From NCBI RefSeq assembly GCF_024508235.1, contig NZ_CP101943.1, positions 186,001-250,000 of the forward strand: a stretch of 64,000 nt of DNA, read 5' to 3'. Position numbers and translations under genes: made by a program. This DNA is from Halococcus qingdaonensis. GTDB taxonomy: Archaea > Halobacteriota > Halobacteria > Halobacteriales > Halococcaceae. Under the pieces are notes generated by a model. The model was not told the origin of the DNA. It made no database searches and saw only the letters and a program-made list of their open reading frames with translations. Positions 3,917 to 56,527 of the stretch are shown here, piece by piece (within the stretch, counting starts at the first letter, position 1; each line of letters starts with the position of its first letter).

Positions 3917-5812
3917 CTAGGGCGCGCGACGGCGTGGGGACGCGTTCCGAGCCGATCCACACTGTCCGGTTCGGTTCAGGATCAGCGTGTACTGTTCGGC
4001 CCGGAAATCCTGATCGTCGCCGTAGGTGATCGTCCACGGATCGACGCCGGTCTTCAGGAGGTCCAACAGCGACGTCTGAGTCCGTGGCTGTGGCCACATC
4101 GGTGGCTGCGGGCCGAACTCGGCTGCCACAGTGTAGTTGTACTGTCCGGTGAGCAGGCTCCGCACGTGTTCGGCCCGTTTCGGTCTCGGCGATCTGGGCG
4201 GCAGTCCACGTCTGTACCCGTCGGCGACCTGTTTCTGGTTTCCAGAGTCCGCCCGGATCGGACTCGCGGTACCGAGATGGACGAGATCCCAGTAGGTGAG
4301 CTGGATGAACTCCGGACACCGGGTCGAGAGGTTGTTCATCCACTGGGCGCGCGTCGGTGGGTCGGAACCCGCCGTCATCCGTGCTTTGCGATAGCTGTTG
4401 ATCTGCATGTCGCGGGGGAACGTCGCATCCCTGAACCGCGACCGATACACCTCCATCGTCGCGTTGTCGGGCGCGTTCGCGTCCAGCCACTCCGCCGCTT
4501 CGTCACGCGGTGTGGTGGCGTAATGAAGATCGCCGACACCGGCATACGCGCTGCTCGTGACGAACAGCACTGCGACGAGCGCCCACATGATGCGCTGGCT
4601 GTGGCCGCGAAGCCGGGAGAGTGCGGCTGCGAGCAAGAGTGCAAGCAGCGGAAACGTGAGGAGGAGGTGATGCAGACGTACGTAGCCCCAGCGAGAGTAT
4701 ACGAGGAGATACATCCCGAGACCGACGAGCAACAGTATTGTCGCGTCCGCCTCGATCGAACGCTCGCGCAGGCGACCGATCCCCGCCGCGATGCCACCGA
4801 GCGCGCCGACGAACAACGGAAGTCCGAGACCGTTGAGATAGCCGCGCACCAGCCACCACCAGCTCGGCGCGACCGGTGCAGCCACACCGACCGATCGCGA
4901 ACCGCCGCCGGCAACCCGCTCGATGAGTACTTCGGGACCGGCAGCGAGCACCTCGGGAAATCCGACGACGATCGCTCCTGCACCGCATGCGACCGCCATG
5001 ACCAACAGTCGTGGTTGCAAGAGTGCGTCGCGCGGGTTCACGCCCGGTCTCCGCGCTCGCAGGACGTACGCGAGACCGAGGAGTATGACGCTCGTTCCGG
5101 CAGTGAGTTTGAACGCGATGGCGATCCCGCCCGCTATACAGCCGGCAAGATAGACCGCCCTGTCGCCCGTCTCGATGTATCGGAGCGCGAGGTAGAACAC
5201 CAGCAGGAGGAAAAACAACGCCGGGATGTCCTCGCTCACCTCGTGGGCCATGATGAGAAATCCCCACGTCAGCGAGAGCAACACGGCTGCCAGGCGTCCG
5301 GTCGTCCGATCGCGCATCGTCCTTCCGAGACGGTAGGTAAGGTAGACACAGCCGATCGCGAGCACGACGGTGAGCAGCCGCGCGAAAAACAGACTCCCCG
5401 TCCAGATCCATTCGGGCGTGCCGGTACGAAACTGCCAGAGACCGGCCGTTCGAAGCTGCGGATTGAACCCGACGAACGCGCCGAGCTGTCCCGTCACGAG
5501 CGCGACGATCGCGACCGGGAGCACGGCGAGCAGATTCACGTAGAACGTCGCCCCAGCGGGCTGCTGTGCCAGGATCGCCGGTCGAATCGCACCGAGTCCG
5601 GGGTCGTCGACGACGGTACCGACCGCCGCGAGTGCGTCGATGAGCCGCCAGCGCTCGTCGATCGTCGCGAACTCGGGAATCCCGTGCCAGAACCAGAATC
5701 CGGCGAGTACCGCCGCCAAGAGGAGAATGTATCGAAGATAGGGGTCGGTCGTGAGATCGTCGCCGACTCGCTTTTTCGCGCGACCCAGCAGTCCACCGCC
5801 GATTCCTCGCAT
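3917..5812 (-). CDS. GT-C (ArnT/PMT-like) membrane glycosyltransferase
   Basis: A 631-residue polytopic protein. TM1 is followed by a loop with FATIDERWRLID (an acidic D/E site as in GT-C fold lipid-linked sugar transferases). About ten to eleven more TM segments follow, including FYVNLLAVLP, ARLLTVVLAIG and a conserved MAHEVSEDIPALFF stretch, and then a soluble C-terminal domain of about 190 residues. Such dolichyl-phosphate-sugar dependent enzymes glycosylate lipids or S-layer proteins on the extracellular face. It lies at the left edge of the dTDP-rhamnose island and is transcribed away from it. TTTTAATA on the minus strand at 5843-5836 sits 24-31 bases upstream of the ATG, fitting a leaderless transcript. 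Donor and acceptor are unknown. Confidence 0.75.
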   Translation of the reverse strand: MRGIGGGLLGRAKKRVGDDLTTDPYLRYILLLAAVLAGFWFWHGIPEFATIDERWRLIDALAAVGTVVDDPGLGAIRPAILAQQPAGATFYVNLLAVLPVAIVALVTGQLGAFVGFNPQLRTAGLWQFRTGTPEWIWTGSLFFARLLTVVLAIGCVYLTYRLGRTMRDRTTGRLAAVLLSLTWGFLIMAHEVSEDIPALFFLLLVFYLALRYIETGDRAVYLAGCIAGGIAIAFKLTAGTSVILLGLAYVLRARRPGVNPRDALLQPRLLVMAVACGAGAIVVGFPEVLAAGPEVLIERVAGGGSRSVGVAAPVAPSWWWLVRGYLNGLGLPLFVGALGGIAAGIGRLRERSIEADATILLLVGLGMYLLVYSRWGYVRLHHLLLTFPLLALLLAAALSRLRGHSQRIMWALVAVLFVTSSAYAGVGDLHYATTPRDEAAEWLDANAPDNATMEVYRSRFRDATFPRDMQINSYRKARMTAGSDPPTRAQWMNNLSTRCPEFIQLTYWDLVHLGTASPIRADSGNQKQVADGYRRGLPPRSPRPKRAEHVRSLLTGQYNYTVAAEFGPQPPMWPQPRTQTSLLDLLKTGVDPWTITYGDDQDFRAEQYTLILNRTGQCGSARNASPRRRAP

Positions 5813-5835
5813 TGACTCGGCTTGCGCGCAATCCG

Positions 5836-5843
5836 TATTAAAA
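5836..5843 (-). promoter_or_regulatory. TATA element of the GT-C gene
   Basis: TTTTAATA on the minus strand, 24-31 bases before the ATG at 5812, the spacing expected for a leaderless haloarchaeal mRNA. Confidence 0.5.
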
Positions 5844-5988
5844 GCGGGTCATCCCGTCACGACGGCCGGCCACTCGACCGCTCCGCCCACGATCGACGGC
5901 CCCCAATCGGATGGACGGTTGTCGTCGTGCGCGATCGTGACTGCAAGGAACCGCCGCTCCTATTACCTCGCTCGTCGTGTCGCCGGCA

Positions 5989-7065
5989 ATGAAAGGCGTA
6001 CTTCTCGCCGGGGGCAAGGGCACCCGCCTCCGACCGATCACACATACCGGCCCGAAACAGCTGGTACCGGTGGCGAACAAGCCCGTCATCCAGTACGCCA
6101 TCGAAGACCTCAAAGACGCTGGCATCACCGATATCGGCGTCATCCTCGGGAACAAGGGACGCGAGGCGATCCAGGACTACCTCGGTGACGGTACTGATTT
6201 CGGGGTCGATATCACGTATATCGTGCAGGGCGATCCGCTCGGGCTCGCCCACGCAGTCGGCTGTGCGCGCGAGTTCGTCGATGGCGACGATTTCGTCGTC
6301 TATCTCGGTGACAACATGCTCAAACAGGGCATCTCCGCTCTCGTCGAGAGCTTCGAGCACGGCCAGTACGATGCGGGTATCGCCCTCCAATCGGTCGCGG
6401 AGCCGGAACAGTTCGGCGTTGCCGACGTCGATGCGAACGGCGACGTCACGCGACTCGTCGAAAAGCCCGACGACCCACCGAGCGATCTCGCGCTCATCGG
6501 CGTCTACGTGTTTTCACCTGTCGTCTTCGACGCCATCGAACGACTCGAACCGTCGTGGCGTGGCGAGTACGAGATCACCGAGGCCATCGGCACGCTGCTC
6601 GACGACGGCTGTGCGATCGACTCGCTCGTCATCGAGGGCTGGTGGAAGGATACCGGCAAGCCGGCCGACGTGCTCGAAGCGAACCGGTTGGTGCTCGACG
6701 ACCGACGGGACGAGACGCCGGCGATCGATAGCGAGAGCGACGCGGAGACCACGGGCTATCTCGACGTCCACGACACGGCGACCATCGAAGCGGGGGCGGT
6801 CGTTCGTGGTCCGGTATCCATCGGCGCGGACACGACGATCGAAGCCGGTGCCTACGTCGGGCCGTACACCTCGATCGGCCCGAACTCGACCCTTCGGAAC
6901 GTCCATCTCGAAAACAGCGTGATCGTGGGCGACTCGTCCATCGCGACCGATGGCAAGATCGTCGACAGTCTCATCGGCCGTGGCACGTCGATCGGCAGTG
7001 CCGACGGACTGCTTCCCGAGGGTCGCCGGTTGGTCGTCGGCGAGAACTCGAATCTCGATCTCTGA
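5989..7065 (+). CDS. rfbA: Glucose-1-phosphate thymidylyltransferase
   Basis: A 358-residue enzyme making dTDP-glucose from glucose-1-phosphate and dTTP, the first step to dTDP-L-rhamnose. The N-terminal nucleotidyltransferase domain begins MKGVLLAGGKGTRLRP (signature G-G-x-G-T-R) and continues with GPKQLVPVANKP, YLGDNML and the catalytic-region motifs EKPDDPPS and WWKDTGKP. After about residue 240 comes a left-handed beta-helix of hexapeptide-type repeats, as in the long archaeal or Gra-orf1 type rather than short E. coli RmlA. Start 5989 is preferred over the GTG at 5977 because it begins at the Rossmann strand. It is the first of the four rhamnose genes here. Confidence 0.9.
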   Translation: MKGVLLAGGKGTRLRPITHTGPKQLVPVANKPVIQYAIEDLKDAGITDIGVILGNKGREAIQDYLGDGTDFGVDITYIVQGDPLGLAHAVGCAREFVDGDDFVVYLGDNMLKQGISALVESFEHGQYDAGIALQSVAEPEQFGVADVDANGDVTRLVEKPDDPPSDLALIGVYVFSPVVFDAIERLEPSWRGEYEITEAIGTLLDDGCAIDSLVIEGWWKDTGKPADVLEANRLVLDDRRDETPAIDSESDAETTGYLDVHDTATIEAGAVVRGPVSIGADTTIEAGAYVGPYTSIGPNSTLRNVHLENSVIVGDSSIATDGKIVDSLIGRGTSIGSADGLLPEGRRLVVGENSNLDL

Positions 7066-7131
7066 GATCGCGTCCCGTCACGTCCGATCTATCTCGCATC
7101 GAGCCACCGATATCGCACGGGGTGCTGGGGA

Positions 7132-8037
7132 TCATAGCGCATCGGTGATCGCGTCGAGATCGTCGGCGAGCGCTGGCTGTTCACGGTCGAGCACATGCTC
7201 GACCTTCTCAACGTCGAGACAGGTATGCAGCGGTCGCGTTGCGGCACGGTCCACGGCCGACTGTGAGCCTTCGGCCAACAGTTCCACGGGCACGTCCAGA
7301 GAGCGTGACGCAGCGAGTCGCTCCCTGATTCGTTCGCCGAATTCGTACGGTGTGATACACGATCGACTGGCGATATGCACCGTCCCCGTGACGTCTGCTG
7401 CAAGGAGATCGAGCAGCGCTGTGGCCGCCTGCCCGGCCCTGCTCGGCGTCACGGTCTGGTCCGTGAACAGCGGGATCGATTCTCCTTTTCCGAGGCGGTC
7501 GCTGACCCACGCCGGAAAGCCGGTGAGGGTTCCCGTGGCACCGTGGGTTCCATAGACGAACGAAAGCCGGGCGAGGAGGGCTCCGTCATGGGCCTTTTCG
7601 ACAGTTCGCTCGCCAGTGAGTTTCGACTCGCCATACACTTGTTGTGGATTCGTCGGTGCGGACTCGGCGTATCTCCGTTCGGCGTTCCCGTCGAACACGT
7701 AATCGGTCGAAACGTGACAGAACGCGAGCTCTCGGTCGGCACAGACACGCGCCAGCTCACCGGGTGCTGCCCCGTTGACGGCGTGGGCGTGCTCCGGATT
7801 TCGTTCACAGCCGTCCACATCGGTCATGGCCGCACAGTTGAGAACGGCATCGAACTCGTGTGCATCGAGTATCGTGGTGAACCGATCGGTGTCTCGGATA
7901 TCCAACTCGTGTAGCGGGATGTCGAACATGGACTCGGTCGCGTGATACGTTCCGGTACACTCCCAGTCGCGCGCAAGCGCTTTCGCGATCACGTTGCTCC
8001 CGAGAAGTCCGTTCGCCCCAACGACGAGCAGCTGCAT
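7132..8037 (-). CDS. rfbD: dTDP-4-dehydrorhamnose reductase
   Basis: A 301-residue short-chain reductase giving the last step to dTDP-L-rhamnose. The Rossmann nucleotide motif GANGLLGSNV is at the N-terminus. The RmlD features follow: the Asp-rich DVDGCERNP, STDYVFDG, and the catalytic YGESK (Tyr-xxx-Lys). It is transcribed divergently from rfbB with only 52 bases between the two starts, so the two genes probably share a control region. The protein is complete and of normal length. Confidence 0.9.
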   Translation of the reverse strand: MQLLVVGANGLLGSNVIAKALARDWECTGTYHATESMFDIPLHELDIRDTDRFTTILDAHEFDAVLNCAAMTDVDGCERNPEHAHAVNGAAPGELARVCADRELAFCHVSTDYVFDGNAERRYAESAPTNPQQVYGESKLTGERTVEKAHDGALLARLSFVYGTHGATGTLTGFPAWVSDRLGKGESIPLFTDQTVTPSRAGQAATALLDLLAADVTGTVHIASRSCITPYEFGERIRERLAASRSLDVPVELLAEGSQSAVDRAATRPLHTCLDVEKVEHVLDREQPALADDLDAITDAL

Positions 8038-8060
8038 ACGCGGTACAGCCGATGAAAACC

Positions 8061-8067
8061 TAAATAC
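8061..8067 (+). promoter_or_regulatory. TATA element of rfbB
   Basis: TAAATAC lies 23-29 bases before the rfbB ATG inside the 52-base divergent rfbD/rfbB spacer, which fits leaderless transcription. Confidence 0.5.
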
Positions 8068-8089
8068 ATACTGTCACCGACGTCCCTCC

Positions 8090-9019
8090 ATGAGCGTGCT
8101 CGTCACCGGTGGTGCAGGGTTCATCGGCTCGAACTTCGTTCGCCACCTCCTCGACACGACGAACCGATCGGTCATCACTCTCGATGCGCTCACGTATGCC
8201 GGTTCGATGCGTCATCTCGACGATGTCCTCGACCATCCGCGCCACGATTTCGTCGAGGGCGATATTCGAGATCAGTCGCTGATTGCGGAGCTCTTCGAGG
8301 AGATCGATAGCGTCGTGAACTTCGCCGCCGAGTCACACGTCGACCGCTCGATCGACTCGGCCGAACCGTTCGTTGCGACGAACGTTCAGGGAACGCGGAC
8401 GCTTCTCGACGCCGCACGGGACGCCGACATCGACCGATTCGTCCAGATATCGACCGACGAAGTCTACGGCGAGATCCACGACGGGACGTTCGCCGAGACG
8501 GACCCACTCGACCCGCGAAACCCCTACGCCGCCACGAAAGCGAGTGCGGATCTACTCGCATTGAGCTACCACTCCACGTACGATCTACCGGTGCTCGTCA
8601 CCCGTTCGTCGAACAATTTCGGGCCACACCAGCACTCGGAGAAACTCATCCCCAAACTCATCGACCGCGCGGCACGCGGGGAGTCGCTCCCGATCTATGG
8701 CGACGGGTCGAACGTTCGCGAATGGACCTACGTACAGGACAACTGTCGCGCGATCCGGACGGTTCTCGACGAGGGAACGACCGGTGAGATATACAACGTC
8801 GGCAGCGGTGACGAGCGGACGAACCTCGACGTCGCTCGGACGGTGCTCGATGCCGTGGGAGCACCCGAAACCCTCATCGAGTTCGTCGAGGATCGTCCTG
8901 GCCACGACGAGCGGTACGCACTCGATGCAAGCAAGATGGCGGCGCTCGGCTGGGAACCCGAGTGGTCGTTCGAGGAGGGGCTCGAACGAACGGTCGAACT
9001 GACTGTCGGGCAGAACTGA
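8090..9019 (+). CDS. rfbB: dTDP-glucose 4,6-dehydratase
   Basis: A 309-residue extended short-chain dehydrogenase converting dTDP-glucose to dTDP-4-keto-6-deoxyglucose. MSVLVTGGAGFIGSNF holds the NAD-binding GxxGxxG, HVDRSIDS is a family signature, STDEVYG precedes the active site, and YAATK is the catalytic Tyr-xxx-Lys. The protein begins exactly at the Rossmann motif and an appropriately spaced TATA element precedes it. The reading frame is open further upstream to 7994, but that region overlaps rfbD and is not coding. Confidence 0.93.
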   Translation: MSVLVTGGAGFIGSNFVRHLLDTTNRSVITLDALTYAGSMRHLDDVLDHPRHDFVEGDIRDQSLIAELFEEIDSVVNFAAESHVDRSIDSAEPFVATNVQGTRTLLDAARDADIDRFVQISTDEVYGEIHDGTFAETDPLDPRNPYAATKASADLLALSYHSTYDLPVLVTRSSNNFGPHQHSEKLIPKLIDRAARGESLPIYGDGSNVREWTYVQDNCRAIRTVLDEGTTGEIYNVGSGDERTNLDVARTVLDAVGAPETLIEFVEDRPGHDERYALDASKMAALGWEPEWSFEEGLERTVELTVGQN

Positions 9020-9128
9020 TCGGAACCCCGTGAGGTGACACGTCGCTTGTTGTAGCGGCGTTTTTGAATCTGCTCCCCACGCACTTTCGTCCGACAGTAC
9101 ACTCCGAGTCGCGCGTCGAGTCGAATCG

Positions 9129-9593
9129 TTATCCCTGATGCGTCTCGTCCCAATCGTACGGGATCTCGTCGGTATCGGGCGGTAGCCGCTCCTCGTCGGG
9201 GTCGTCGTAGTCGTAGAGGTTCGTCGGGAAGTTGATCAGCAATGCGGAGTCGTCACCGATCGTCTTGAACCCGTGCCAGCAATCACCGGGGATACGGACG
9301 ACTCGCTGGTTGTGTTCGCCGATGACGAACGTATCGAGTTCCCCGCGTGTCGGTGACGATTCGCGATCGTCGTAGATGGCGACCTTGATGCGTCCCGTCG
9401 GACAGACGAAGTGGTCTATCTGGCCCCGCTCGTGGCGGTGCCACGCGCGGACGACGCCTGGATAGCTCATCGAGTAGTAGCTCATCGCCGGATCGGGGTC
9501 GTACAGCTCCCAGTCCTCGCGGAAGATCTCGACGAGATGGCCGCGCTCGTCCGCGTTGACCTGCAGATCGCGCGCTGTCACTCCCTCTATCAT
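9129..9593 (-). CDS. rfbC: dTDP-4-dehydrorhamnose 3,5-epimerase-like cupin
   Basis: A 154-residue RmlC-type cupin that would epimerise dTDP-4-keto-6-deoxyglucose, completing the dTDP-rhamnose set. Visible hallmarks are ADERGHLVEIFRED at the N-terminus, the histidine-containing VVRAWHRHERGQIDHFVC segment and PGDCWHGFKTIGD. The ATG at 9593 is chosen over the in-frame 9611 because a TATTTATA element lies 28-35 bases upstream of 9593. It is shorter than bacterial RmlC (about 180 residues), like other archaeal copies. Some relatives of this length act on other sugar nucleotides, so the exact substrate is inferred from the neighbouring rfbA, rfbB and rfbD. Confidence 0.82.
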   Translation of the reverse strand: MIEGVTARDLQVNADERGHLVEIFREDWELYDPDPAMSYYSMSYPGVVRAWHRHERGQIDHFVCPTGRIKVAIYDDRESSPTRGELDTFVIGEHNQRVVRIPGDCWHGFKTIGDDSALLINFPTNLYDYDDPDEERLPPDTDEIPYDWDETHQG

Positions 9594-9620
9594 GGCTGTC
9601 CACACGTCCAATGCTGTGCG

Positions 9621-9628
9621 TATAAATA
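9621..9628 (-). promoter_or_regulatory. TATA element of rfbC
   Basis: TATTTATA on the minus strand, 28-35 bases before the ATG at 9593. It supports this start against the one at 9611. Confidence 0.5.
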
Positions 9629-9704
9629 CTCCGGAGCGACGTCGATGAGCGTCGGCGGTCGTCGAACAGGTAGTTTATTCTCCTTGCTCGTTCGTGATCG
9701 GCGT

Positions 9705-10466
9705 ATGCCGGACGACAGCCTGCTTCGCCGTTCGCTTCGCCGGAGTGGGGTTCTCGACTGGATTCGAACGGCGATCGACCGGTACAACCGGATCTACCGA
9801 TCTCCACCGTACGACCCCCCGACCGACCACCGCGAGTTTCGTGCGGTGCGACGCCACTCGCAGGAACCGACCGATATCAGTGATCATCTCGAACGACTGT
9901 TCGTCGAGGCGATGCAGGCTTCTCCCGACACCATCGTCGAATGCGGCGTCCGCAGTGGCGAGTCGACGTTCGTCTTCGAGCGCGTTGCACGCCTCACTGA
10001 CGCCGACGTGGTGAGCGTCGATATCGAGGCGACGTCCTACACCACCGACTACGACGGCTGGCAGTTCGTCAACGCCGATGATGTCGATTTCGCCGCGGAG
10101 TTTGGGAGCTGGTGTGACGAGAACGACGTCGATCCCGCCATCGACGTCCTGTTCGTGGACACGAGCCATCGCTACGAGCACACGCTCGCCGAGATCGAGG
10201 CGTGGTTTCCCCATCTCAGCGAGAACGCAGTCGTCCTCTTTCACGACACCAACATGCAGCGATTTTATCGGCGCAAAGACCGGACGAGAGGGTTGAGTCC
10301 GATCGCGGACCGGGGCGTCATCCGAGCGATAGAGGACCACTTCGACTGCGACCTCGACGAAACCGAATCGTTCGTCACTGTTCTGGATGACTTTGTCTTC
10401 GAACAGTATCCGTATTGTAGTGGCCTCGCCGTCCTCCGAAAACTCGGTTCGACGGCGGCTCCGTAG
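9705..10466 (+). CDS. Class I SAM methyltransferase (Methyltransf_24/CmcI-like)
   Basis: A 253-residue soluble protein. Motif I is seen as TIVECGVRSGEST, the acidic strand 2 end as VVSVDIEA, and the hallmark of this family as DVLFVDTSHRYEHTLAEIEAW followed by VVLFHDT. Families with the FxDxxHxYE and HD motifs include sugar and macrolide O-methyltransferases and cephalosporin hydroxylase-type MTases, with the acidic residues and His often binding a metal. Its position in the rhamnose island suggests glycan O-methylation. ATG 9705 is preceded by GTAGTTTATT about 26-35 bases upstream, while the longer open frame back to 9411 overlaps rfbC. Confidence 0.7.
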   Translation: MPDDSLLRRSLRRSGVLDWIRTAIDRYNRIYRSPPYDPPTDHREFRAVRRHSQEPTDISDHLERLFVEAMQASPDTIVECGVRSGESTFVFERVARLTDADVVSVDIEATSYTTDYDGWQFVNADDVDFAAEFGSWCDENDVDPAIDVLFVDTSHRYEHTLAEIEAWFPHLSENAVVLFHDTNMQRFYRRKDRTRGLSPIADRGVIRAIEDHFDCDLDETESFVTVLDDFVFEQYPYCSGLAVLRKLGSTAAP

Positions 10467-10558
10467 ATCGTCTTCCGTCCGATTTTCGAGACCGAAATCG
10501 ATGGTCGGATTGTTTCCATCTAGAAAGAACCATCACGGGCGGCGGTAGTGATGTTCGT

Positions 10559-11362
10559 ATGGCTCTCAGATCGTATGTAACCGGTGCAGGCCGACTCTAC
10601 CGTCGCGACGGGTTCGATTCGGTCTTTCGCCGCGGTCTCGAAAAGGTCGAACGGGACGTGGGCAATGCACTCCCCGCCATCGGCGATACCCTCTGTCGAG
10701 CGCTGTCCGTCCGAGAGCTGCGTGGCTACCAATCGTCCGAGGACGATCTCACCGATATCATCGACACAGCGTACGACTATCGGGGCTACGGTGCGTATCG
10801 ATCCATCGAGCCGATGCAGATCCGTTCGGAGCTCCGGGATTTCGTCGAAGCGGTCGCTGCCAGCGATCCCGAGACGGTGTGTGAGATCGGCACCGCCCGC
10901 GGCGGGAGCTACTACGTGTGGGCGCAGTATCTCGCTGCCACGAACTACCTCAGCATCGACCTTCCCGGCGGCCGTTTCGGCGGCGGACACTCGCTCAGAC
11001 GTGCCGAGTTCCTCCGCGACGTCTGTGATCGCCCGGACATCGACCAGGCGTTTCTCCGCGGCAATTCCCACTCGCCGGCGACCGCTCGCCACGTCGAGGA
11101 GATCCTCGACGGTGATACCATCGACTTCCTGTTTATCGATGGCGATCATACCTACGACGGTGTCAAAGACGACTTCGAGCGGTATTCACCGTTCGTCGCC
11201 GACGGCGGGCTCATCGCGTTCCACGATATCGTCACTATCGACCACGACCCCGACTGCGAGGTCGACCGATTCTGGCGCGAACTCCGTGAGGAGTACGAGA
11301 CGACCGAGATCGTTGCCGATCCACAGCAGGATCGCGGCGGCGTCGGTCTCGTTCACTGGTGA
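10559..11362 (+). CDS. Class I SAM methyltransferase (Methyltransf_24/CmcI-like), second copy
   Basis: A 267-residue protein. Motif I reads TVCEIGTARGGSYYVW, strand 2 ends in YLSIDLPGG, and the metal/substrate motif is IDFLFIDGDHTYDGVKDDFERY followed by LIAFHDIV. It is distantly related to the gene ending at 10466, with the same architecture but low identity, so the two are unlikely to be a recent duplication. A basic 60-residue N-terminal extension may pack against membrane or partner. It probably methylates a sugar of the glycan made by this island; the substrate is not deducible. Confidence 0.72.
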   Translation: MALRSYVTGAGRLYRRDGFDSVFRRGLEKVERDVGNALPAIGDTLCRALSVRELRGYQSSEDDLTDIIDTAYDYRGYGAYRSIEPMQIRSELRDFVEAVAASDPETVCEIGTARGGSYYVWAQYLAATNYLSIDLPGGRFGGGHSLRRAEFLRDVCDRPDIDQAFLRGNSHSPATARHVEEILDGDTIDFLFIDGDHTYDGVKDDFERYSPFVADGGLIAFHDIVTIDHDPDCEVDRFWRELREEYETTEIVADPQQDRGGVGLVHW

Positions 11363-11389
11363 CGAGTCCATCGCTGTCGCCGATATTGG

Positions 11390-12250
11390 TCACGATACGG
11401 ACGTCGCATCGACGAACGCGTCGGCCGAACGAGGGTAGGCAGTGCAGTAGATCACCAGCGGATTGAGAACGATACTGGCGGCTGCAACGACGACTGGCAG
11501 CAGTGAATCGGTGTTTTTCCGATGTACGACGACCCGCGCCCGGATCATCTTCGCCAAGGTGACGAAATTTCGTATGCTTGGGGCGTACATATCGTCGTTG
11601 TCCGGGTGGATCGAGTGTGTGTCCAGTATCGCTCGCATCGGCACGCCGGCATCGGCGAGCCGCAACGACAGATCGACGTCCTCGACGCGCAGCGGCATCG
11701 CCGGATCGAACACCTGCCCCGAAAGCACGGTCCGATATATCTCTCGGGGAACGATCACGCCATCACCGGGAACGTAGTTCACCGCAGCATCCCCGGACAG
11801 CGAATCGACGCGATACGGGAGCGTAAACCGATACCGGGAGAGGAGGCGTACACACGTCCGTTCGGAAGACACACGGTAGTTGCGCCGGGCCGTCGTCCAT
11901 ACCGCGTCCGGCGTGACCCGCTCGGAAAGCGTCCGCAAGTATCCGTCAGGGAACAGCGTATCGTGATTGTAACAGCAGATATACTGCCCATCGCTTTCGC
12001 GGATGCCTCGGTTGATACCCCGGCTGAAGCCACGATTTCGTTCGTTTTCGACTATCCGTACCGAATCGTCCTCCGAGTAGGCGTTCCGAAGCAGCTGTAC
12101 CGTGTCGTCCTGACTGTCGTTGTCCACGACGACGACCTCGTAGTCGGTGAACGACTGCTGCTCGACCGATTCGAGCGTCCGGAGGATCGCCTCTCCTGCG
12201 TTCCACGTGAGAAATACGAGCGAGAACAGCGGCCGCGAGTCCGTCTCCAT
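11390..12250 (-). CDS. Family 2 glycosyltransferase
   Basis: A 286-residue GT-A enzyme beginning with LFSLVFLTWNAGEAIL, then VVVDNDSQDDT, RNRGFSRGINRGI and YICCYNHDT (the DxD region appears as NHD). A C-terminal RVEDVDLSLRLADAG is the ED acceptor-base motif of rhamnosyltransferase-like GT2 members. A hydrophobic segment near the C-terminus may anchor it. With dTDP-rhamnose made next door it is a candidate rhamnosyltransferase, which is an inference from context. The ATG at 12250 is used; the upstream codon at 12253 is GTG. Confidence 0.8.
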   Translation of the reverse strand: METDSRPLFSLVFLTWNAGEAILRTLESVEQQSFTDYEVVVVDNDSQDDTVQLLRNAYSEDDSVRIVENERNRGFSRGINRGIRESDGQYICCYNHDTLFPDGYLRTLSERVTPDAVWTTARRNYRVSSERTCVRLLSRYRFTLPYRVDSLSGDAAVNYVPGDGVIVPREIYRTVLSGQVFDPAMPLRVEDVDLSLRLADAGVPMRAILDTHSIHPDNDDMYAPSIRNFVTLAKMIRARVVVHRKNTDSLLPVVVAAASIVLNPLVIYCTAYPRSADAFVDATSVS

Positions 12251-12358
12251 CACTGGTTTGTTGGTCGACAGCGCATTGGTGAAACGGTCATGGATCGTGG
12301 CTTCGTTCCATCGAGATTGCTATCAGACTGACGGCACAGTCGTCTCGGTCACGCTCGT

Positions 12359-13456
12359 TCACCTGATCCACGTGGTGAAGATGGTGCGAGCGAGGCCGAG
12401 TGCGTAGCCGAGTTTCGGCTTTTTCGTCGTTCCGGTTTCACGCTGCGCGATGGAGACCGGGATCTCTCGGATCCGCAGCCCGTTTTTGCGGGCTTCGATG
12501 ATGAGTTCGGGCGCACTGAACCGCTCTTCGGTGAGTGTGAGGTCGTCGAGCTGTGCCCCGCGGATCGCGCGAAACCCGTTCGTACAGTCGGTGATGTTCG
12601 ACTTGGTGATCACGTTGATCACCTTCGTGAACAGTCGGATTCCGGCTCGGCGAGCGACACCGTTCCCCGATTCGTCGACACCCGCATACCGTGAGCCGAC
12701 CACGTAGTCGGCCGCATCGTCGGCGATCGGCGCGACGAGCGCGTCGAGCTGGTCGATCGGGTGTTGGCCATCGGCGTCGATCGTGACGACGATGTCGGCA
12801 CCGCGCTGCTGGGCGAGTTCGAAGCCCGTCTTGAGTGCGCCGCCCTGTCCCTGATTGAGCGGATGCTCGACGGCAGTCGCCCCGGTCGATGCAACCCGGT
12901 CGACCGTTCCATCGGTCGATCCATCGGAGACGACGAGCGTTTCGACCGCGTAGCCGTGGACCGATTCCGGCAGTGAACTGACGACGTTTCGGATGCTTTC
13001 GGCCTCGTTGTAGGCGGGAATCACCACACAGACCGTTCGTTCCGTGCTGGTGTCGTTGCTGGCCGTCTCGGTGGCTCGCTCCACTGCGAGATCCCGTGTG
13101 AGTTCGGTGATCGACAGTTGGTTGCTCCGCACCTGAGCCAACAGATACAGGACGAGCAACACCAGCGCGCTGTTCGCGAGCAACGACACGATGAGCGACC
13201 GGCGTTCGACGTGAAACGCCGACGCGAGGGCACTGTACACGGCCGGAAACGCTCCGGCGGCGAACACGCCGAGCGAGAGGGCGATCGCGATCAGGAACTC
13301 CTGCCGCGAGAACGTGGTTCGGTAGCGCTCGAACCCCCAGAGGAAAATCACGACGGCGAGGCCGATGAGGAACGCGGTGAGCGTGCCACTGTCGAGCCCG
13401 AAGGCTTGCAACACGGGTCCGTTTGCAGTCTGCAGGCCTGCTTCCCACACCGGCAT
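12359..13456 (-). CDS. DUF2304-like membrane domain fused to DPM1-like GT2
   Basis: A 365-residue two-domain protein. Residues about 20-120 form three hydrophobic segments typical of DUF2304, with FERYRTTFSRQEF between them. Residues about 142-360 are a polyprenyl-phosphate glycosyltransferase, with VCVVIPAYNEAESI, VVSDGSTDGT, HPLNQGQGGALKTGF, IDADGQHPID (DxD) and SNITDCTNGFRAI. Enzymes of this type load a sugar onto dolichyl or polyprenyl phosphate for use by GT-C enzymes such as the one at 3917. In many genomes DUF2304 is a separate small protein beside a DPM1-like gene, and here the two are fused. Confidence 0.82.
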   Translation of the reverse strand: MPVWEAGLQTANGPVLQAFGLDSGTLTAFLIGLAVVIFLWGFERYRTTFSRQEFLIAIALSLGVFAAGAFPAVYSALASAFHVERRSLIVSLLANSALVLLVLYLLAQVRSNQLSITELTRDLAVERATETASNDTSTERTVCVVIPAYNEAESIRNVVSSLPESVHGYAVETLVVSDGSTDGTVDRVASTGATAVEHPLNQGQGGALKTGFELAQQRGADIVVTIDADGQHPIDQLDALVAPIADDAADYVVGSRYAGVDESGNGVARRAGIRLFTKVINVITKSNITDCTNGFRAIRGAQLDDLTLTEERFSAPELIIEARKNGLRIREIPVSIAQRETGTTKKPKLGYALGLARTIFTTWIR

Positions 13457-13608
13457 TGTTGCCTGTTCGGTCTCTCGACGACACGACTATTAGCGCTTGT
13501 GGCTGCAGCCCCGCTCTCCCGGTTGGTGGCTGCTGGCCGGACCCGCCGGTATCGACATTGACAAAGCACATGAGTTATCCCGACTGCTAAACCAGTATCG
13601 TCTGATCG

Positions 13609-14487
13609 ATGACTCACTCGCCGGCCGTTCTCTCGGTCGATCTCGAATTCTTCACCCATCTTCCCGCCTATCGGAACGCACGCGGGCGGACCGACCGAGA
13701 CGACATCGGTCTCGCTGCCGTCGACGATCTCCTCGCCGTCTTCGACGACTACGACGTATCGACGACGTTTTTCGTGGTTAGCGACATCGCCGAGCGCCAT
13801 CCCGACTGTGTCGAACGGGTCGCCGCTGCTGGTCACGAGATCGCCTCACATACCCACCGCCATCGCCATCTCACGACGCTGGACGAGCGCGATCGTCGCG
13901 ACGAAATCGATCGCTCTCGGACGCTCCTCGAAGACGTGACGGGAACGTCGGTCACGGGATTTCGTGCGCCGTCGTTCGATACTGCTGCGGACCACTTCTC
14001 GATGCTCGCGGCAGCCGGCTACGAGTACGACTCCAGCATCGTTCCGTGTCGGTCGATTCCGGGCTGGTACGGCGGCGACCACGATATCGACAGCCCCGTG
14101 CCGGCGACGCAGGTGCAGTCGGCCGCTCCCGACACGATCACCGAACTGCCGGTGAGTGCCTTCCCCGGGCTCCGCCTTCCGCTTACGGGTACCTGGCTCC
14201 GATTTTTCGGTCCCCGATATACGACCACTGGCATGCGACTGCTCGCCCGTCGTGGGATCCGTCCGGTTCTCTACGTCCATCCGTGGGAGTTCGCCGACCT
14301 TCCGGACGTGGCAGGCGTTCCGAACCGGGTGTACTGGCACACCGGTAGCTGGATGCGCCGCTCACTGCTCAGGATACTCGACGGTCCGTTCGAGTTCGTC
14401 ACCGCACGGTCGGCCGTCGAGAGCGCGACCGAGAGCGATGACCCGGCCAGCAGTACCGCCAGCGACACTGTCGTTGGAGGGCGGTAG
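13609..14487 (+). CDS. Polysaccharide deacetylase (NodB-type, CE4)
   Basis: A 292-residue protein with CE4 motifs: SVDLEFF (motif 1 Asp), ASHTHRHRHLT (metal-binding H-xxx-H), GFRAPSFD (motif 3) and a late YVHPWEF (motif 5 His). It resembles the XrtA/PEP-CTERM type deacetylases (DUF3473-like C-terminus) that remove N-acetyl groups from hexosamine-containing glycans. The next gene starts only four bases after its TAG, so the two are probably co-transcribed. No signal peptide is apparent; a cytoplasmic or membrane-associated role acting before export is possible. Confidence 0.85.
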   Translation: MTHSPAVLSVDLEFFTHLPAYRNARGRTDRDDIGLAAVDDLLAVFDDYDVSTTFFVVSDIAERHPDCVERVAAAGHEIASHTHRHRHLTTLDERDRRDEIDRSRTLLEDVTGTSVTGFRAPSFDTAADHFSMLAAAGYEYDSSIVPCRSIPGWYGGDHDIDSPVPATQVQSAAPDTITELPVSAFPGLRLPLTGTWLRFFGPRYTTTGMRLLARRGIRPVLYVHPWEFADLPDVAGVPNRVYWHTGSWMRRSLLRILDGPFEFVTARSAVESATESDDPASSTASDTVVGGR

Positions 14488-14491
14488 CGTG

Positions 14492-15526
14492 ATGGATTCG
14501 AAACGTCGGGCATGGCTGTTCAGAGCTGCCCAGTATCTCCTCGGAGCGCTCACGCTCGCATGGGTGCTTGGACAGGTCGAGTGGGAACGCACGGTATCGC
14601 TGTTCGCTTCGGTCTCCATCGAAACGACCGTGGCGCTCATCGCCGTGAGCGGCGTTGGACTTCTCGTTGCGCTTGCCATGTGGCACGTGCTGCTCGACAG
14701 GATCGAAGACACACGCTTTCGGGCCGCCATCGATACCGGTCTCATCGTCCTCTTCGTCAACCATCTCCTGCCATCACGGCTGTCGGGGCGGGCCGTCGCC
14801 CCGTTCGTCGTCCACCACCGGACCGGCATGGCGTATCCGGGTGCCGTCGGCGTTTCGGGCGTTCACACCGGCCTGTATGCGATTCTGTACGGTCTCGTTG
14901 CATTCCTCGGTCTCGTACTCAGTGTGGGCCAACTGCCGCTGGGACTTGCGCTCGTTCTCGTGCTCTCGACCGCACTGTATGCCGCCGCCGGAACGGCCGT
15001 GTTGCTCGCCGGTATCAATCTCAGCGCCGTCGAGCGCATTGCGGGCGGGATCGAGCGCATCGCTCGCCGTGTTCCGGTCGTGGGCGATCGGCTCGCAGCA
15101 CTTGCGAGAAAACTCCCCGAATTCTCGGCGGCATCGGCGGCTACCTTCCGTACGCTGCTGCGCGACCCCGTTGCGATCGTCTCCTACACGGCCGGGTTCG
15201 TGGTTGCACAGCTGATCGTCCCCGGCCTGCGAGTGTGGCTGATCTTCGAGAGTCTTGGCGTCAGTCTGGAGCCAGCGCTCTTCCTGCCGTTCTATCTCAT
15301 CATGGCATACAGCGTCACGCTGTTACCGCTCACGCCGGGCGGCGTCGGCGTCACCGAGGCGACGGCGACGGCGGTGTTCATCGCCCTCGGCGTGCCGAGT
15401 ACGGCGATCGTCACGGCGATTTTCGTCGATCGACTGCTCGGCTCCTATCTCCCAGCGCTCGTCGGCTGGTATCCCTCCCTCAAGATGGATCTCTCGAAAC
15501 TCGTCGAGTCACCGAGTCAGGACTGA
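14492..15526 (+). CDS. LPG-synthase-TM-like membrane protein (flippase-like, UPF0104)
   Basis: A 344-residue polytopic protein with seven to eight TM segments. Features include FVNHLLPSRLSGRAVAPFVV (the conserved N-x-x-L-P-x-R patch), and YSVTLLPLTPGGVGVTEA (the PxxPGGxGxxE motif), which together define the lysylphosphatidylglycerol-synthase TM / glycosyltransferase-associated flippase-like superfamily. Family members associate with glycan lipids. Four bases separate it from the deacetylase and thirty from the phosphodiesterase, suggesting an operon. GTG at 14489 is an alternative start. Confidence 0.82.
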   Translation: MDSKRRAWLFRAAQYLLGALTLAWVLGQVEWERTVSLFASVSIETTVALIAVSGVGLLVALAMWHVLLDRIEDTRFRAAIDTGLIVLFVNHLLPSRLSGRAVAPFVVHHRTGMAYPGAVGVSGVHTGLYAILYGLVAFLGLVLSVGQLPLGLALVLVLSTALYAAAGTAVLLAGINLSAVERIAGGIERIARRVPVVGDRLAALARKLPEFSAASAATFRTLLRDPVAIVSYTAGFVVAQLIVPGLRVWLIFESLGVSLEPALFLPFYLIMAYSVTLLPLTPGGVGVTEATATAVFIALGVPSTAIVTAIFVDRLLGSYLPALVGWYPSLKMDLSKLVESPSQD

Positions 15527-15556
15527 AACGAGAACCTATTTCCTCGTTGCAGTATC

Positions 15557-17110
15557 ATGGCGGGCATGACACGGACGTTCGTCGTCGGTCTCGACGGTGC
15601 GGGCTGGCGATTGCTCGAACCGTGGATCGAGGCCGGTGAGCTCCCGAATCTCGCCGCGCTTCGGTCCGGCGGCGTGTGGGCCGAGAGTCGGAGCTGCCTC
15701 CCGCCCGTGACGTTCCCGAACTGGAAGTGTTACTCTTCCGGCAAAGATCCCGGCGGCTTCGGCGTGTTCTGGTTCGAAAACGTCGACCTCGCGAACGAAC
15801 GCATCGAAACGACCGACAGCCGTGATTTCCACACTGCGGAGCTGTGGGACTACCTCAACGACGCCGGACGCTCGACGGGCGTCGTCAACATGCCGACGAT
15901 GTACCCGCCGCGTGAACTCGACGGCGTCGTCGTCTCCGGCGGACCGAGCACCGTCGAGGGGGAGTATCGCTCGATCAGTTCGGGGTATACCTATCCCGAG
16001 GGACTCGATCAGCGGCTCACCGAGGAGTTCGATTACCGAGTCCATCCCGAACCGCTCCTCTCCTCGAACGAGGAACGCGGTGCGGAAGTCGACGCCATTC
16101 TCTCGGTGCTCGAAAGCCGCTTCGAAGTCGCACTGCGGCTGTTCGAGGAGCAGGAGCTCGATTTCATGCACGTGACGCTGTTTTACCTCAACGTCCTGCA
16201 TCACTTCTTCTGGGACGACGAGCCAACCCTGCGGGCGTGGAAACTCGTCGACGAGTGGCTCGGACGACTGGACGACCTCGACGACACCAACCTCGTCGTT
16301 CTCTCGGATCATGGGAGCGCGCCGACGACGACGGAGTTCTATATCAACGAGTGGCTCGCCGAGAACGACTACCAGTCCCGCGAACGGACCATCGAGGACG
16401 TCCTCCGAACGGTCGGTCTCGATCGGGAGAACGTTCTGCGCGTCGCAAAACGCGTCGGTGCCGTCGACGTCCTGAAACGAACCGTTCCCGAACGGCTTCA
16501 ACAGCTGGTCCCACAGCGAGCGGGCGTCAAGCGCGGACGGAAACTCGAAGCGATCGATCTCGATCGGACGAGCGCCGTCGCGAGTTCACAGGGTCCGATC
16601 TATCTCAACCCCGAGTTCGAGACCGACGCCCTCCGCGACGAACTCATCGAGACGCTCCGCTCGGTCTCGGACGAGGAGGGGCCACTGTTCACTGCAGTTC
16701 ATCGCGGTGAGGACGTTTACTCCGGTCCATATCTCGACCTCGCACCCGAAATCGTCGTCGACCAGCGATCAGGCGTCCACGTCAACGATGGGGTCGGCGG
16801 TGGCTCGATCCACACCGATCCCGACCGCTGGGCAGCGGAGAACACACCACACGGCATCTTCATGGCCAACGGCCCCGATTTCGACACTCGCGGTGAGATC
16901 GACCGGATCAGTATCCTCGATATCGCACCGACGCTGTTGGTCACGAACGGAACTGCCGTTCCGGAGGACATGCGTGGTGACGTGCTGCCGATCTTCACTG
17001 AGGACCCCTCGTGGGACTCTCGTGAGCCGATACAGCTGGATCGGCACGACACGAAGCAACACTCCGAACAGGTCTCGGACCGACTCAAGCAGTTGGGGTA
17101 TATGGAGTAG
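15557..17110 (+). CDS. Type I phosphodiesterase/nucleotide pyrophosphatase family protein
   Basis: A 517-residue alkaline-phosphatase-superfamily hydrolase. The first metal site is VVGLDGAGWR, the nucleophile region PPVTFPNWKCYSSGKDPG (Thr or Ser), the middle metal site VVLSDHGSAP, and the last IHTDPD with HGIFMANGP. Archaeal members are often encoded in surface-glycan loci and may cleave sugar- or lipid-phosphodiesters. ATG 15566 (MTRTFVVG) is an equally good start and is better spaced from CCTATTT at 15534-15540. A second, more distant family member is at 56528. The gene ends the glycan island just before the IS element. Confidence 0.82.
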   Translation: MAGMTRTFVVGLDGAGWRLLEPWIEAGELPNLAALRSGGVWAESRSCLPPVTFPNWKCYSSGKDPGGFGVFWFENVDLANERIETTDSRDFHTAELWDYLNDAGRSTGVVNMPTMYPPRELDGVVVSGGPSTVEGEYRSISSGYTYPEGLDQRLTEEFDYRVHPEPLLSSNEERGAEVDAILSVLESRFEVALRLFEEQELDFMHVTLFYLNVLHHFFWDDEPTLRAWKLVDEWLGRLDDLDDTNLVVLSDHGSAPTTTEFYINEWLAENDYQSRERTIEDVLRTVGLDRENVLRVAKRVGAVDVLKRTVPERLQQLVPQRAGVKRGRKLEAIDLDRTSAVASSQGPIYLNPEFETDALRDELIETLRSVSDEEGPLFTAVHRGEDVYSGPYLDLAPEIVVDQRSGVHVNDGVGGGSIHTDPDRWAAENTPHGIFMANGPDFDTRGEIDRISILDIAPTLLVTNGTAVPEDMRGDVLPIFTEDPSWDSREPIQLDRHDTKQHSEQVSDRLKQLGYME

Positions 17111-17361
17111 TCTCACCGACCAGCGTACTGGTCGGATCGAACGGGAGCGCCGTCGCCATTCGATGGAAACAGTGCCGTCTTATCCGGGTAACAGGCGCAA
17201 GACCCCTCCCTCAAGGAGCGCAGGGTCGTCCGATTTATCGGACGCACAAGCGAGTAGGGAGGGGATACGCGCCGTAAGCTTGGTTACATTCCCGGCGGTG
17301 GTTGCCGGGTCGGATATTCACCAGACCAAACACTTACTAGCGGACAGATACATGGTTATGT

Positions 17362-18657
17362 ATGGCGAAAAAGGTCGTCACGCGCACCCAGCGCGCTCGC
17401 ATCTGCAACCTCTCGCAGGTGCGTGACGACCTCGATTCGCTCGGGTTCGCCGCCAGCAAGCTCTGGAACGTGGCCCGCTGGACAGCGGGCCGCGTTTGGG
17501 ATGCTTGCGGCCAAATTCCCGGTGCTGGCGACCTCAAATCGTACCTCAAAGGCAGTGGACGCTATGTGGATTTACACAGCCAATCCAGTCAGCGAGTTCT
17601 CGAAGAACTCGATGAGGCGTTCACCGGATGGTACGGCCACCGCGACAACGGGAACGAGAAAGCGAACCCGCCCGGCTACCGCAAACACAACGAACAACAC
17701 CCACGCTCGACGGTCACGTTCAAGCAGAAAGGCTTCAAACACGACGCCGACAACGGCCGAATTCGCCTCTCGAAAGGACGAAATCTCAAAGAAAGCCGCT
17801 CTGACTTCGTACTCTGCGAGTACGATGTCATCGGTCCACGCGGAACAACCATCGAGAACGTCCAACAGGTGCGTGCCGTCTACGAACACGGCGTCTGGCG
17901 CTTGCATATCGTCTGTGACGTTGCAATCGAGGCCTCCGACACACCCGGCAACGGAGTTGCCGGGGTTGACCTCGGTATCTGCAACGTCGCTGCCGTCTCG
18001 TTCGGTGACGAATCCCTGTTGTATCCTGGTGGCGCGTTCAAGGAGGACGAATACTACTTCCTCAAGAAGCGGGCCAGATGTGATGAGAGTACGTCGCGCG
18101 AAGCGCGACGACTCGACCAACGGCGAACCGACCGCCGTACGCACTTCTTCCATACCCTCTCGAAAGACATCATCGAGGAATGTGTCGGGCGAGAGGTCGG
18201 GACGTTGATCGTCGGGGACCTCGGCGGCATCCGCGAAGATACTGAGACCGGCGAGGCCGTCAATTGGGGTACACACGGCAACCTCGATCTACACGGCTGG
18301 CCGTTCAACCGCTTGTGGAAGATGCTCAAGTACAAAGGCGAAATCAAAGGTATCGACGTGGTTCGCAAGAGCGAGCGGGACACGTCGAGGACGTGTGCCG
18401 TGTGCGGCCACGAAGATGAGAGTCAGCGCAAAGAGCGTGGGTTGTACGTTTGTGAGAAATGCGGAACCGTGGCGAATGCCGATTGTGGTGGCGCGGAGAA
18501 TATCCGGCAGAGAGCAGAAGTACCTCCGAATCCGAGCGCTCCGCGCTCGGATAGGAGTAACGGCTGGTTGGCACAGCCAGTGGTTCGCCTGTTCGACCGT
18601 AGCGAGGGCCGTTTTGCCCCGCGAGAACAGGTCGCTCAAACGAACCGCGAACCCTAA
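17362..18657 (+). CDS. tnpB: TnpB RNA-guided nuclease-family protein
   Basis: A 431-residue protein. The N-terminal wedge/REC part (ASKLWNVARW, HSQSSQRVLEEL, NPPGYRKHN) is followed by RuvC-I GVDLGICN (Asp about 203), RuvC-II LIVGDLGGIREDT (about 283-293), a zinc ribbon CAVCG...CEKCG (Cys about 345, 348, 364, 367) and RuvC-III NADCGGAENI (Asp about 374). At RuvC-II the usual E-D-L triplet reads G-D-L, so the canonical catalytic glutamate is missing; the nearest acidic residues are Glu292 and Asp293. The start agrees with the other copies. The C-terminal tail after about residue 390 is diverged. Confidence 0.9.
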   Translation: MAKKVVTRTQRARICNLSQVRDDLDSLGFAASKLWNVARWTAGRVWDACGQIPGAGDLKSYLKGSGRYVDLHSQSSQRVLEELDEAFTGWYGHRDNGNEKANPPGYRKHNEQHPRSTVTFKQKGFKHDADNGRIRLSKGRNLKESRSDFVLCEYDVIGPRGTTIENVQQVRAVYEHGVWRLHIVCDVAIEASDTPGNGVAGVDLGICNVAAVSFGDESLLYPGGAFKEDEYYFLKKRARCDESTSREARRLDQRRTDRRTHFFHTLSKDIIEECVGREVGTLIVGDLGGIREDTETGEAVNWGTHGNLDLHGWPFNRLWKMLKYKGEIKGIDVVRKSERDTSRTCAVCGHEDESQRKERGLYVCEKCGTVANADCGGAENIRQRAEVPPNPSAPRSDRSNGWLAQPVVRLFDRSEGRFAPREQVAQTNREP

Positions 18658-18729
18658 TATCCCAAACGCGGTCGGGAATCCCCGTCCTCAGCGAACCCCG
18701 AAGGGGTGAGCAGGGCGGGGAGGATGTCA
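18640..18729 (+). ncRNA. Predicted omega-RNA/right-end RNA scaffold of the 17.2 kb element
   Basis: The tnpB 3' end and the following bases form a GC-rich structured tail: CGGTCGGGAATCCCCG, then CCCCGAAGGGG (a tight hairpin), closing with GGGGAGGATGTCA. In IS605-family elements the right-end transcript is the TnpB guide scaffold, and sense-overlapping transcripts are known from haloarchaeal IS1341-type elements. The guide would be the bases from 18730. The 5' limit is arbitrary. Confidence 0.55.
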
Positions 18730-18758
18730 ATGCAAACCCTTCTGACTGCTTACTAGTG

Positions 18759-23297: not shown

Positions 23298-23360
23298 CGC
23301 GGTGGCCGACCACGCGTTTCGAACCGTCCGTCGAACACCGACGACCGAACAGCATTACCG

Positions 23361-56410: not shown

Positions 56411-56527
56411 AGCCTATCGCTCGTGGTCCAGTTAGCTGACACGCCGAAATCTCGGAAGGTCAGCGCCTGAAATTAGATAAGGAGATCGAAACGAATCTTC
56501 TTTGTGCGCGCCCGAACTGACCCACTC

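Follow-up and report, generated by a model that had tools for sequence, protein, structure and literature searches.

The Arn pathway, which places 4-aminoarabinose on lipid A, leads from a lipid phosphate sugar synthase (ArnC) through a NodB-type deacylase (ArnD) and a flippase of small transporters (ArnE/F) to a GT-C transferase (ArnT). Three-component systems, such as Gtr and the pentofuranose system of Citrobacter, are described as a polyprenyl phosphate sugar synthase, a flippase, and a GT-C transferase (PMC11127046). In mycobacteria and corynebacteria, the addition of galactosamine to arabinogalactan likewise involves a GT2 synthase (PpgS, Rv3631) with a partner (Rv3632) and then an outside GT-C transferase (Rv3779), and the deacetylase and flippase of this pathway are referred to as ‘as yet unidentified factors’ (PMC9671496, 2022). 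Here, we describe a gene island of the archaeon Halococcus qingdaonensis that encodes a comparable set of enzymes. The island lies in a 64,000-nucleotide stretch (C1:186001-250000, hereafter the window) of a 2.70 Mb genome in one contig. The original prediction, made from the letters of this stretch, described it as a surface-glycan island built around dTDP-rhamnose. Comparison with other genomes instead identified the conserved unit as a five-component module, and not the rhamnose set. The module consists of a GT2 synthase associated with DUF2304, a NodB-type deacetylase, an LPG_synthase_TM flippase-like membrane protein, a GT-C transferase, and a phosphodiesterase of the alkaline phosphatase (AP) superfamily.

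Island genes were called by Pfam and NCBIfam scans of the open reading frames (ORFs) of the window, and the phyletic survey covered 293 Halobacteriales genomes, with thresholds of E 1e-60 or better for the deacetylase, 1e-20 for the flippase-like protein, 1e-60 for the GT-C profile, at least 60% identity for the phosphodiesterase, and PF10066 for DUF2304. The deacetylase and the flippase-like protein were found in an identical set of 55 genomes. The GT-C transferase occurs in 53 genomes and the phosphodiesterase also in 53, none of them beyond these 55, and DUF2304 occurs in 70 genomes, including all 55 deacetylase carriers. The GT-C set is without G041 and G052, which both have near-module GT-C proteins at 25% identity (that of G041 is a PMT_2 protein), and the phosphodiesterase set is without G194 and G197, whose paralogues have about 45% identity, and includes G008, in which the gene is split over two frames. 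As a phyletic pattern, the association is beyond chance for the five-component module and not for the rml genes. Two points weigh against a strong interpretation of this pattern. The 55 genomes are related, so that hypergeometric values overstate their independence, and since, in addition, the 60% limit for the phosphodiesterase was set after the scores were known, no probability is claimed for the co-occurrence. Moreover, the module is present in four of the 10 genomes of the same genus and is therefore not required for the Halococcus wall; the patchy distribution, both here and amongst the 293 genomes, looks like that of a surface-variation trait.

To examine the order of the module genes, we compared the window proteins with the DNA that surrounds the flippase-like gene in other Halobacteriales. 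Fifty loci were fetched (L017-L066), and the layout counts refer to the 43 that contain the deacetylase besides the window; L019 (no match) and L020, L022, L024, L025, L026, and L027 (no deacetylase) were left out, and 11 module genomes (G127, G132, G152, G156, G184, G193, G217, G232, G240, G273, and G276) are outside the locus set. The recurring partners are a GT2, fused to DUF2304 or not, the deacetylase, the flippase-like protein, the GT-C transferase, and the phosphodiesterase. All 43 loci have the deacetylase and flippase-like genes on a common strand, and in 37 of them the second lies no more than 80 bases downstream of the first. A GT2 is encoded within 8 kb of the deacetylase in 41 loci, the GT-C transferase in 38, and the phosphodiesterase in 34. 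The spacing in the window is operon-like: the flippase-like gene begins a few bases behind the deacetylase gene, and the phosphodiesterase gene comes next, with gaps of no more than a few tens of bases. Outside Halobacteriales, the archaeon SCG-AAA382B04 (L115) has genes for NodB with DUF3473, GT2, DUF2304, PF03706, PF01663, and PMT_2 on one strand, with a single methyltransferase gene amongst them on the opposite strand.

The gene set is well supported, while its chemistry is unproven. We propose with moderate confidence that the core of the island is a polyprenyl phosphate sugar pathway, in which an extracytoplasmic glycosylation resembling the three-component systems is combined with a deacetylation step. 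From hydropathy, the invariant NodB and GT2 motifs, and the likeness of the GT-C model to known transferases, we infer an order of charging, deacetylation, flipping, and transfer. The DUF2304-GT2 protein would charge dolichyl or polyprenyl phosphate at the cytoplasmic face with an N-acetylated sugar, most likely an N-acetylhexosamine (HexNAc) from UDP-HexNAc, and the cytoplasmic NodB/DUF3473 protein would deacetylate this sugar while it is bound to the lipid, freeing the amine. The LPG_synthase_TM protein would then flip the lipid-linked aminosugar, and the GT-C protein would hand it on, outside the membrane, to a glycan or glycolipid acceptor, with polyprenyl phosphate as the remaining product. 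The soluble phosphodiesterase may work in the cytoplasm, where it could remove a by-product or a misused donor. In Halococcus, the unit probably also receives O-methylated rhamnose, through a second GT2, the Rml enzymes, and two methyltransferases; this is the weakest step. Like the three-component systems, the module contains a GT2 synthase and a GT-C transferase, with the PF03706 membrane protein as a candidate flippase, but it adds the deacetylase and the cytoplasmic phosphodiesterase and has LPG_synthase_TM instead of a MATE or GtrA-type flippase.

The fused synthase has three hydrophobic segments, all N-terminal in a simple hydropathy scan, and the aspartates of its DxD-like DAD motif, together with neighboring positions of the GT2 domain, are invariant in 13 of 13 sequences. 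The best match in a search of the PDB was dolichol monophosphate mannose synthase, followed by ArnC. DUF2304 is fused to GT2 in the 13 aligned sequences, and many genomes encode it separately (20 small proteins were grouped, and the four that were scanned all matched PF10066); the two are thus fused in one lineage and encoded by neighboring genes in another, and these lineages are deeply separate in the GT2 tree, with the same partners for both. A DUF2304-type partner is also a point of likeness to the PpgS system, as C. glutamicum encodes a DUF2304 protein, presumably the Rv3632 homologue Cgp_0393, in which case Rv3632 would itself be a DUF2304 protein.

Several observations on the synthase weigh against the proposed pathway. 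All NCBIfam cut-offs are missed, with the polyprenyl-phospho-GalNAc synthase PpgS (NF058614) as the best match at 128.4 of 370 bits and AglJ at 109 of 325 bits, and the likeness to PpgS, resting on this best but sub-threshold score, is that of an enzyme that may work like PpgS and is not filed as a member of the family. The GT2 of SCG-AAA382B04 scores higher against AglJ than against PpgS. Fused DUF2304-GT2 genes are also found without the deacetylase, so this synthase lineage is not specific to the pathway, and synthases of this type probably serve other pathways too. In loci L136-L143, DUF2304-GT2-type genes are present, but the flippase-like protein is missing and the deacetylase gives no strong match (a weak one in L138). 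In Haloarcula, AepG, a GT2 similar to dolichol phosphate mannose synthase, is described as making dolichyl phosphate (DolP)-glucuronic acid that feeds exopolysaccharide (PMC9943897), and the sugar is therefore not readable from the family. The product of AepG and the failure of the family scores to separate PpgS from AglJ-like enzymes would both accord with a synthase that makes a non-acetylated DolP-sugar, such as a hexose or uronic acid, from which the NodB-like protein removes some other group, for example formyl or O-acetyl. ArnD, the NodB relative of the Arn pathway, is a deformylase. However, the invariant NodB positions and the co-occurrence of the five components call for deacylation of a shared lipid intermediate in any case, and no formyltransferase was seen amongst the scanned island proteins, which makes this alternative very improbable.

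The deacetylase shows no signal and no hydrophobic or membrane segment in a simple hydropathy scan and should therefore act before export. The NodB motif positions D11, E13, H81, H85, R119, P121, and H224, amongst them those of the active site, show no variation in the alignment (39 of 39 sequences). A point against the proposed pathway is that the best NCBIfam match is the polysaccharide deacetylase of the XrtA system (TIGR03006, 139 bits, below cut-off), which would suggest a polymer. In such a case, the deacetylase would act on a growing or lipid pyrophosphate-linked polymer, as in XrtA-type exopolysaccharide synthesis, and the GT-C protein would add a side chain, so that the aminosugar would be in the polymer and not on a lipid phosphate donor. 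The role of AepG in Haloarcula indicates that DolP-sugars can feed exopolysaccharide, but a deacetylase without signal peptide or membrane anchor would need a lipid-linked repeat unit in the cytoplasm, and neither a polymerase nor Wzx is amongst the conserved module genes. We therefore regard modification of an exopolysaccharide as unlikely.

For the step that would follow deacetylation in the proposed lipid phosphate pathway, the PF03706 membrane protein is, from its family assignment, a reasonable flippase candidate; a PDB sequence search with its alignment gave nothing useful. The ORF at 14512-15639, originally named as the flippase, was rejected because its reading frame is wrong, and no Pfam family matches it, whereas the overlapping gene in Table 1 carries the PF03706 domain. 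PF03706 proteins were already proposed as flippases by Makarova and colleagues (PMC5898192, 2015, section 3.4), where AglD is given as carrying this domain and where Methanosarcina MA0797/MA0798 are described as an arCOG00899 flippase beside the polysaccharide deacetylase arCOG02876, with a glycosyltransferase in the context. The link between deacetylase and flippase is thus already known from Methanosarcina; the five-gene set, DUF2304, the GT-C partner, and a deacetylated lipid phosphate donor are not given in that section. As a precedent for the mechanism, AglD, AglR, and AglS of Haloferax are described as charging mannose on a separate DolP, moving it across the membrane, and adding it outside to a glycan (PMC3871713). 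This system differs in its sugar, and the part of the account that covers it names neither a deacetylase nor DUF2304. Amongst titles and abstract openings in the literature searched, there was no description of an archaeal pathway or module for a deacetylated DolP-aminosugar.

The GT-C protein has eleven hydrophobic segments in a simple hydropathy scan, and D52 is invariant, and E53 almost so, after the first membrane helix. A PDB sequence search with its alignment gave nothing useful. Its structural model (predicted template modeling score, pTM, 0.90) has a VIA Z of 29.4 to ALG12 over 433 residues (root-mean-square deviation, rmsd, 4.2), and Z values of 26.9 to Pmt4 over 384 residues (rmsd 3.7) and 25.5 to ArnT over 432 residues (rmsd 5.8). 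The modeled fold resembles lipid phosphate sugar transferases including ArnT, and the GT-C protein, not the phosphodiesterase, is predicted to perform the transfer. Together with the matches to ArnC and ArnT, the intact motifs of a NodB-type deacylase and the proposed order of activities are points of likeness to the Arn pathway, which differs in that the flippase-like protein of the island belongs to PF03706. Archaea are not known to have lipid A that could serve as acceptor, and no genes for the aminoarabinose donor (ArnA/ArnB) were found amongst the scanned island proteins, the wider genome not having been searched for them. In H. morrhuae, a 35-residue GT-C fragment with 77% identity (L018, 17404-17508; also L069, 13371-13475) is located downstream of the phosphodiesterase gene and is perhaps the remnant of a second GT-C copy.

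Within the set, the phosphodiesterase shows the highest conservation, with 61-74% identity to the window protein in 32 sequences and 97-99% identity in two genomes of the same genus. It was rejected as a ligase, since it has neither signal nor membrane segment in a hydropathy scan and, as a soluble protein, should not manage glycan ligation outside. Its model has a fold like that of nucleotide pyrophosphatases/phosphodiesterases (NPPs) and phosphonoacetate hydrolase (pTM 0.78; confidence is low near the nucleophile motif, at residues 46-70), and its profile matches phosphonoacetate hydrolase and NPPs weakly. Amongst 20 sequences, position 209 of the window protein, which we take to be a metal ligand by comparison with NPP enzymes, is Asn in the window protein and 16 relatives and Asp in three more distant relatives. 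In Haloarcula, the gene is located away from the module, yet co-occurrence is kept; its surroundings there (L086, L088, and L089), viewed by eye with ORFs unscanned, have no glycan genes and give no clue to the substrate. Nine loci of the first set, namely L021 (10262-11407, a PF00884 protein), L023, L049, L051, L055, L056, L058, L060, and L061, have a second AP-superfamily gene, of about 380 amino acids (aa), beside the module; no such gene was seen in the island of the window. The window also encodes a further PF01663 paralogue at 56504-57874, with 28% identity to the island phosphodiesterase.

The rhamnose genes have a different distribution from that of the module. The full rml set adjoins the module in only three of 44 loci (the window, L017, and L018, which are near-identical Halococcus islands), and the rml genes were therefore rejected as the core of the island. 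Close homologues of the second GT2, a candidate rhamnosyltransferase, were found in five of the 212 genomes searched for it (compared with 293 for the module), and in L154 and L155, where the deacetylase is absent, its partner is a fused DUF2304-GT2. The completeness of dTDP-L-rhamnose synthesis in the original prediction holds at the level of Pfam, where RmlA, RmlB, RmlC, and RmlD are all present, but not at that of NCBIfam, as both RmlC and RmlD score below cut-off; the divergent RmlC has only 38 of 156 bits against TIGR01221, far below the equivalog cut-off.

The original prediction placed all island genes on a single rhamnose-centered, lipid-linked oligosaccharide, with the flippase-like protein and the phosphodiesterase substituting for AglB and Wzx/Wzy. 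The genes do stand together in the three Halococcus islands, and the genome’s sole PF00908 gene, that of RmlC, is in the island. A further locus, L027, links homologues of RmlABCD, GT-C, GT2, methyltransferase 1 (MT1), and the flippase-like protein (FLP), and the DNA similarity between L027 and the window spans all of these genes. L027 has no deacetylase, which counts against the deacetylation pathway, and the similarity means that the set of rml, GT2, and methyltransferase genes exists elsewhere without the deacetylase. On the other hand, 41 of 44 module loci have no adjoining rml set, the GT-C protein accounts for transfer without AglB, and the phosphodiesterase lacks the signal or membrane segment that an outside role would need. 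The GT-C gene was also rejected as a member of the rml cluster because, in a tree, the window protein clusters with the GT-C from a module locus that lacks rml genes (support 0.995) and not with that of L027. A single rhamnose-centered product is accordingly unlikely. The more general prediction of a lipid-linked sugar that is deacetylated and exported fits the evidence well, and rhamnose and O-methylation in the same product as the aminosugar are plausible in Halococcus only, given the locus and GT2 counts above.

No AglB (STT3) is encoded in the island and no Wzx (PF01943) was found amongst the scanned island proteins, as originally stated, but a search of the genome for aglB and its neighbors located both elsewhere, at about 790-837 kb. 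The only STT3 gene found is an AglB at C1:834788-836116 (TIGR04154, 889 bits), and there are two Wzx-like PF01943 proteins in the same region, along with AglJ (441 bits, cut-off 325) and AglG (464 bits, cut-off 440), so their absence from the island is local only; their presence elsewhere counts against substitution. Of the proposed replacements for AglB, Wzx, and Wzy, the PF03706 protein stands as a reasonable flippase, whereas the transferase would be the GT-C protein. The envelope of Halococcus is described as a sulfated heteropolysaccharide, in contrast to the S-layer of most haloarchaea (PMC13321033), and an assay of S-layer glycans is therefore poorly suited to this host. The envelope sugars as listed in that source include glucosamine and galactosamine and do not include rhamnose.

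The remaining gene assignments of the original prediction, namely the Dol-P-sugar-type synthase with built-in DUF2304, the GT-C protein, two CmcI-like methyltransferases, the NodB-type deacetylase, and the phosphodiesterase, were recovered by the family scans (Table 1); the second GT2 had been omitted.

Table 1. Genes of the island, with positions in the window and the basis of each assignment.
Gene product	Position	Strand	Basis
GT-C glycosyltransferase, PMT/ArnT-like, 631 aa	3917..5812	-	PMT_2 and PMT above cut-off
RmlA-long, glucose-1-phosphate thymidylyltransferase	5977..7065	+	TIGR01208, 426 bits (cut-off 320)
RmlD, dTDP-4-dehydrorhamnose reductase	7132..8037	-	PF04321, 210 bits; TIGR01214, 211.5 bits (slightly below cut-off 224)
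RmlB, dTDP-glucose 4,6-dehydratase	about 8090..9019 (start trimmed from 7994)	+	TIGR01181, 422 bits (cut-off 365)
RmlC-like dTDP-sugar 3,5-epimerase, 154 aa	9129..9593	-	PF00908, 61 bits (cut-off 27)
Methyltransferase 1, Methyltransf_24/CmcI-like	9642..10466, start approximate (listed ORF from 9411)	+	PF13578 and PF04989 above cut-off
Methyltransferase 2, Methyltransf_24/CmcI-like	10559..11362	+	PF13578 and PF04989 above cut-off
GT2 with single C-terminal membrane segment, candidate rhamnosyltransferase	11390..12253	-	PF00535
DUF2304-GT2 fusion, predicted polyprenyl phosphate sugar synthase, PpgS/ArnC/AglJ-like	12359..13456	-	PF10066 and PF00535
NodB-fold and DUF3473 deacetylase, without signal or membrane segment	13609..14487	+	PF01522 and PF11959; hydropathy
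LPG_synthase_TM flippase-like membrane protein, 344 aa	14492..15526	+	PF03706, 105 bits
Cytoplasmic AP-superfamily phosphodiesterase	15557..17110 (start 15557 or 15566)	+	PF01663, 113 bits

The RmlC gene overlaps the excess 5' part of the methyltransferase 1 ORF as listed. Immediately downstream of the island, at 17362-18657, there is a TnpB/IS605 OrfB-type gene, and the DNA similarity to the two Halococcus relatives breaks off around it, at about 17120-18731, so that the element is absent or different in both. Further downstream (22110-26602), an NMT1_3-type binding protein is encoded near a 912-aa DctM protein, an arrangement that resembles a TRAP-type transporter.

The end sugar of the mycobacterial galactosamine pathway is a free amine, as is proposed here. 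In contrast to that pathway, the archaeal module has candidates for the deacetylase and the flippase beside the synthase, and the likeness is claimed for the single components, not as homology of the whole pathways. Tentatively, and with considerable doubt that all of its parts will hold, the module may encode every step of an archaeal pathway that deacetylates polyprenyl phosphate-linked HexNAc on the cytoplasmic face and flips it afterwards; NodB-type and LPG_synthase_TM proteins may be the kinds of enzymes to seek for the mycobacterial gaps, and the soluble AP-superfamily hydrolase that almost always accompanies the module, with Asn in place of the expected metal-binding Asp, may carry out a proofreading or recycling step not described before. 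The module thereby suggests protein families for the two steps called unidentified in the mycobacterial pathway. The near-perfect co-occurrence gives each component a role that can be tested in haloarchaeal genera with named strains, namely Haloarcula, Halorientalis, Halomarina, and Halosimplex. If the proposal is true, haloarchaea would display amine-bearing sugars through a lipid phosphate route like those that modify lipid A and the mycobacterial wall.

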